A stretch of DNA of 34,009 nucleotides from Sulfurovum sp. (lineage in GTDB: Bacteria; Campylobacterota; Campylobacteria; Campylobacterales; Sulfurovaceae): positions 1 to 34,009 of the forward strand of contig JAAXPZ010000043.1 of the NCBI GenBank assembly GCA_012329065.1, in the 5' to 3' direction. Every line of letters starts with the position of its first letter. Position 1 is the stretch's first letter. Below the pieces are notes generated by a model, which worked only from the letters and a program-made list of their open reading frames with translations, was not told the origin of the DNA and searched no databases. Shown piece by piece: positions 51 through 134 of this stretch. Both the position numbers and the translations under genes were made by a program.

Positions 51-66
51 GGATCTCTTGCCTTTT

Positions 67-82
67 GTAACCATTTTGAAAC
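67..82 (-). promoter_or_regulatory. Candidate PhosR-like (pho) box
   Basis: Read on the minus strand this is GTTTCAAAATGGTTAC. It agrees at 12 of 14 fixed positions with the C. jejuni PhosR box GTTTC-N-AAAA-N-GTTTC as I recall it. It lies just upstream of a possible -10 hexamer (TATACT, 93-98), about where a -35 element would be, and the downstream gene is a phosphate transporter. The orientation is opposite to the gene and only one copy is seen, so this is a candidate. Confidence 0.35.
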
Positions 83-134
83 CTATACTTATTATACTAT
101 ATTTTATCAATTAAAGTATAACAAGGGGTTACAA

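Follow-up and report, generated by a model that had tools for sequence, protein, structure and literature searches.

An apparently acquired, predicted Na+/phosphate carrier operon of Sulfurovum sp. and its likely control by the host phosphate-starvation regulator

The carrier cassette and its promoter

The window (the whole 34,009-nucleotide stretch analysed here, contig C24 of a 1.94-Mb Sulfurovum sp. genome) begins with three genes on the plus strand. The first (135–1316) encodes a 393-residue member of the Na/Pi cotransporter family, the only one in this genome, which scores above threshold with PF02690 (128.7 bits; cut-off 29.1) and with the Na/Pi symporter model NF037997 (132.6 bits; cut-off 50) and under the cut-off of TIGR01013 (187.6 versus 306.15); its family membership predicts sodium-coupled phosphate transport. 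Located 24 nt further 3' is a gene for an 82-residue coiled-coil-like protein (1341–1589), followed by one for a 158-residue PepSY-domain protein (PF03413; 1609–2085). The list of open reading frames places the start of the carrier frame at position 9, and a Shine-Dalgarno sequence, AAGGGG (123–128), lies 6 nt upstream of an ATG at 135, which is likely to be the actual start codon. The region at 9–50 contains a 40-bp stretch 83% like C69:1261–1300 (locus L136), upstream of a dehydrogenase-like gene, and the two apparently encode a similar short peptide with the start MKIPRT. The window and contig C40 overlap by their first 90 nucleotides, one in reverse complement to the other; C40 thus continues the sequence upstream, with ORFs that we take to be a CopD-like frame and then lepA and prs. 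We considered a terminator separating the carrier from the upstream ORF; the fold of positions 1–60 was no better than that of shuffled sequences (z 0.25). The neighbouring pyrH product is most like PDB chain 4a7w_A, presumably the Helicobacter pylori enzyme, which fits the Campylobacterota; the pyrH region had no match in a plasmid collection.

Upstream of the carrier start codon lies a direct repeat with the geometry of a pho box. Two half-sites on the plus strand (66–83), TGTAACC at 66–72 and TGAAACC at 77–83, are separated by ATTT and repeat with a period of 11 bp, and a −10 element, TATACT (93–98), stands 9 nt 3' of the second half-site, the full element at 66–98 reading TGTAACC-ATTT-TGAAACC-TATACTTAT-TATACT. 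A sequence-only reading of this DNA had singled out the minus strand at 67–82 as agreeing at 12 of 14 fixed positions with the Campylobacter jejuni PhosR box, which it gave as GTTTC-N-AAAA-N-GTTTC, at the −35 position of a possible promoter for a phosphate transporter gene. The letters were read correctly (GTTTCAAAATGGTTAC), and the placement holds as well: the segment lies inside the repeat and covers part of the −35 region of what is plausibly a promoter, with the TATACT, the AAGGGG and the ATG of the PF02690 carrier following in order.

The PhosR consensus itself fared differently. With up to two mismatches it matched the genome 34 times, as against 70 for its reversed control, so that a match to it is, taken alone, no better than chance; by that reading's own criterion (similar matches at random positions at an equal rate) this refutes the box in that form. 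A literature search for the consensus string found no paper containing it. We also scanned 298 genomes of the phylum with its reverse complement joined to a −10, and 41 of them had a match at up to one mismatch; among the 30 loci fetched, no downstream ORF matched the Pst, regulator or lipid genes of Sulfurovum sp., which leaves the PhosR box unsupported at that geometry (the nine ORFs found behind these GAAAC-type sites were, by Pfam, LapA-domain, ferritin, TonB-receptor, HSP90, polymerase-delta and RTX-repeat proteins). We rejected it as the consensus here: the native half-site is TGTAACC (GGTTACA on the minus strand), and the GTTTC form is not enriched. In two of the phylum genomes (L276 and L277), a perfect GAAAC-type repeat with a −10 lies near 1501–1532, before long RTX-repeat ORFs, and these are possibly another dialect of the box.

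The native pho box and the genes behind it

The genome has two Pst loci (contigs C32 and C42). Inspected by eye, the pst promoters carry TGTAACC direct repeats with an 11-bp period, ending 9 nt upstream of the −10: the pstC promoter reads TGTAACC-AATC-TGTAACC-AATCAAGAC-TATAAT and the pstS promoter TGTAACC-AAAC-TGATATC-ATTT-TGTAACC-GTCCGTTGA-TATAAT. The carrier box combines one perfect native half-site with one TGAAACC, and its half-sites occupy the place of the −35 with the same 9-nt gap to the −10 as in these two promoters. A gap of 9 nt is also found in the promoter of an acyltransferase operon, the last two repeats of which read AGTAACT-AGTC-TGTAACT-GCTTTCCTG-TAGAAT.

From the pst promoters we took the pattern TGTAACC-N4-TGTAACC-N9-TANNNT and scanned the genome, obtaining 15 matches versus 11 for the control at up to three mismatches, and 6 versus 2 at up to two. 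The carrier site (66–98, plus strand; one mismatch) ties for second place among the 15, level with a site before an LpxH/PlcP-like phosphatase gene (C54, L161:3993–4757; one mismatch) and behind pstC (no mismatches), while the acyltransferase operon (C42, L101:6080–7789), a response regulator and kinase operon on C45 and the pstS divergent from it (also C45) follow with two mismatches each. All five non-carrier matches at up to two mismatches precede phosphate or lipid-remodelling genes. Among the nine with three mismatches, one lies at the pstS promoter of C32 and another is an additional site in the acyltransferase operon; behind the other seven no phosphate gene was recognised by eye. The acyltransferase is the ornithine-lipid synthase OlsF (766.6 bits; cut-off 620). 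The C54 phosphatase scores under the LpxH cut-offs; Pho-controlled PlcP phospholipases are part of the wider LpxH-like family. Its −10 lies just 6 nt from the start codon, a poor fit to the model, and the site may therefore work differently. Together, the boxes of the OlsF and LpxH/PlcP-like genes suggest that this family remodels its membrane lipids when starved of phosphate, and draw a link there between phosphate scarcity and ornithine-lipid synthesis.

The regulator encoded on C45 is the best match to the PhoB model in the genome, and is called PhoB-like here because its 177.7 bits fall under the TIGR02154 equivalog cut-off of 296.2; the accompanying kinase resembles PhoR most, again under the cut-off. 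Boxes stand both at the promoter of this regulator-kinase pair, where TGAAATC is found (compare TGAAACC in the carrier promoter), and at the divergent pstS, and on these grounds the C45 regulator is our candidate reader of the box. The genome has 26 matches to the PhoB model and over a dozen OmpR-type regulator genes.

We also searched 74 other genomes of the genus, family and order, in which the pattern at up to two mismatches gave 133 matches versus 28 for the control; 53 of the 74 had at least one match, and 21 had a control match. All 38 sites within one mismatch were fetched, and 21 of them precede phosphate or lipid genes (PstS, PstC, PhoU-like, PHO4, OlsF-like and LpxH/PlcP-like). Seven or eight others lie before ORFs of 372–483 residues with no informative Pfam match, one before a Porin_5 gene (over cut-off), one before a weak Porin_4 match (below cut-off), and the rest before other genes (for example GGDEF, antiporter and ABC ATPase genes) or nothing clear. 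In one relative (G009, L208:556–588), a PHO4-family phosphate carrier has a perfect TGTAACC-type box, so that non-Pst carriers would appear to stand under the box elsewhere in the family too.

A weight matrix was built from 43 distinct sites before recognised phosphate genes in the relatives, with the Sulfurovum sp. genome excluded. By this matrix the carrier box scores 20.9 bits, or 27.8 bits once the −10 is added; the matrix is somewhat sharp because the pattern had served to choose its training sites. The TGAAACC half-site departs at position 14, where all 43 training sites have T. In 200 Mb of DNA simulated with an order-3 model from 102 kb of the Sulfurovum sp. genome, 10 positions (0.10 per genome) reached the carrier's box score, and the full score with the −10 was reached nowhere. 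Measured against the box of the native phosphate promoters, the carrier match far exceeds chance expectation.

Origin of the cassette and the orthologous promoters

The distribution of the carrier suggests that the cassette was gained by horizontal transfer in Sulfurovum sp. Among 80 carrier loci kept of 227, the best identity was 76% (Cellvibrionaceae and Methylococcaceae), and a single member of the Campylobacterota, a Poseidonibacter, was present, at 75%. No other carrier orthologue was found in the 119 genomes searched as relatives (own genome included), 44 others of which gave just short stretches with 25–42% identity to the carrier, and a search of 397 phylum genomes at E 1e-40 matched the Sulfurovum sp. 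genome only. Distant NptA-type proteins in the relatives come from longer open frames (435–663 residues), and their control by the box found no support in 29 fetched loci (L105–L133), of which only one has a site within four mismatches anywhere in the fetched stretch, a weak one in L132. A quick tree (44 rows, one of them truncated and with a long branch) places the carrier within a set of Proteobacteria and Nitrospirota, next to a Methylococcaceae protein (SH-aLRT support 85%). Homologues of the coiled-coil protein occur in 31 of the 80 loci and of the PepSY protein in 9, that of the Poseidonibacter included, nearly always directly behind the carrier, and this recurrence marks the three genes as a cassette, found in Proteobacteria, Nitrospirota and a Poseidonibacter.

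The promoters of the orthologues were examined over 260 nt upstream of each of the 80 carrier genes, using the pattern TGTMAY-N5-TGTMAY with up to one mismatch. Because this pattern was chosen after viewing the upstream matches, the fair comparison is with its reversed control: a pho-type repeat was present in 39 of the 80, as against 5 for the reversed pattern (10 for its reverse complement, 1 for its complement and about 1 in shuffles). Conservation of the box in orthologous promoters, which the sequence-only reading had named as a check, is in this sense borne out, and pho control of the carrier looks widespread among its orthologues, though not universal, since 41 of the 80 have no box within one mismatch. 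Nine nucleotides is again the commonest gap between these sites and a TA-N3-T hexamer (9 of 16 counts). The Poseidonibacter promoter, for instance, reads TGTTATT-AAAA-TGTAACT-N9-TATCAT, and that of a close cassette relative (L013) reads TGTCATCAAAATGTCATA-N9-TACTAT. None of the 80 comes within two mismatches of TGTAACC-N4-TGTAACC and the Sulfurovum sp. promoter comes within one, which identifies its box as written in the dialect of the host.

Phosphate-starvation control and its alternatives

Judged by its letters, the carrier box is of the native pho type; its presence, its spacing, its recurrence at native phosphate promoters and its statistical excess can all be read from the DNA. Membership of the carrier operon in the phosphate-starvation regulon is very probable, and we hold it to be highly likely that a horizontally acquired, predicted Na+/phosphate carrier operon has come under the phosphate-starvation regulator of its host. 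The element at 66–98 would be a class-II-type pho promoter: upon phosphate starvation, a PhoB-like regulator (most likely that of C45, encoded with a histidine kinase) would bind TGTAACC and TGAAACC, the bound half-sites standing in for a −35 at 9 nt before TATACT, and would recruit RNA polymerase. We infer such binding and activation at low phosphate from the promoter, together with transcription of the carrier, coiled-coil and PepSY genes as one operon and sodium-coupled uptake by its product. Transcribed alongside would be a regulon of the two Pst loci, the regulator, the ornithine-lipid synthase and the LpxH/PlcP-like phosphatase. The original proposal, that phosphate-starvation control in this lineage covers a Na+-coupled carrier as well as the Pst system, is supported at its core, with a native box before a Na/Pi-family gene in the geometry of two Pst promoters; its 'in this lineage' was too wide, the carrier being in no other of the 397 phylum genomes and the cassette in Sulfurovum sp. 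and also a Poseidonibacter. For a phosphate carrier, such control would be ordinary and sensible regulation, and the native box supplies a consensus that can be put to the test in a large Campylobacterota family.

An AT-rich promoter might resemble a pho box by accident. In line with coincidence, the GTTTC-type consensus was not enriched over its control and the native pattern barely exceeds its own at three mismatches; yet the carrier site has a single mismatch, the exact period and the exact −10 gap, its box score is expected 0.10 times per genome and its score with the −10 was reached nowhere in the 200 Mb simulated, and it precedes a phosphate-carrier gene whose orthologues have pho-type boxes too. 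We consider a chance match very unlikely. Those orthologous boxes, that of L013 among them, share the geometry, as they would if a Proteobacterial pho promoter had travelled with the cassette and the host regulator no longer read it. The half-sites, however, are of host type, with AACC in both, and this closeness to the native repeat is shared by none of the 80 orthologous promoters, which makes a vestigial donor box very unlikely. A functional box could also be read by a different OmpR-type regulator answering another signal, and the genome has enough such genes to supply one; the clustering of sites at pst, pstS, the best PhoB-like regulator and lipid-remodelling genes speaks of one physiological theme, and we regard such a reader as quite improbable.

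Two accounts of how the box reached its place both leave it functional. The cassette may have been inserted behind a pre-existing host pho promoter of another gene, with no rewriting from the donor, as its host dialect and the insertion site between two host genes, the CopD-like ORF and pyrH, would allow. At the same junction, however, the sister species G002, the sole genus relative in which it is seen, has a 182-residue ORF on the opposite strand (in a draft contig with gaps there), and its genome has no pattern site within two mismatches; we give this account a small chance. Rewriting of the cassette promoter from a Proteobacterial TGTCAT-type box to the TGTAACC dialect of the host, with the geometry kept, we consider an even bet. 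If true, it would offer a legible example of regulation acclimatising to a new host, set within a family-wide phosphate regulon that takes in membrane-lipid remodelling through OlsF and the LpxH/PlcP-like phosphatase.

The Escherichia coli PhoB box consists of 7-nt direct repeats of CTGTCAT with an 11-bp period, overlapping the −35 and lying about 9 nt before the −10. The carrier box shares the two 7-nt direct repeats, the period, the −35 overlap and the spacing, and differs in its half-site, TGTAACC, and in a candidate regulator under the PhoB equivalog cut-off. Closer in phylum is the PhosS/PhosR phosphate regulon of C. jejuni, reportedly described by Wosten in 2006, where a phosphate-sensitive two-component system controls pst; the box that the sequence-only reading gave for it has the same 11-bp direct-repeat geometry, with a GAAAC half-site there and GTAACC in Sulfurovum sp. 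In the parts available to us of two accounts of the content of that regulon (PMC3197622, PMC6250842), no PF02690 carrier is seen under its control, and a literature search, limited in subscription journals, found neither a TGTAACC-type pho box nor a boxed PF02690 carrier in the Campylobacterota. The consulted portion of a study of Streptococcus pneumoniae describes NptA as a Na+/Pi cotransporter beside Pst, judged to be of low affinity (PMC4913102). The Sulfurovum sp. carrier would likewise provide an extra phosphate route beside Pst as a predicted Na+/Pi cotransporter; what sets it apart from NptA is the cassette that it forms with the coiled-coil and PepSY genes, and the pho box in front.
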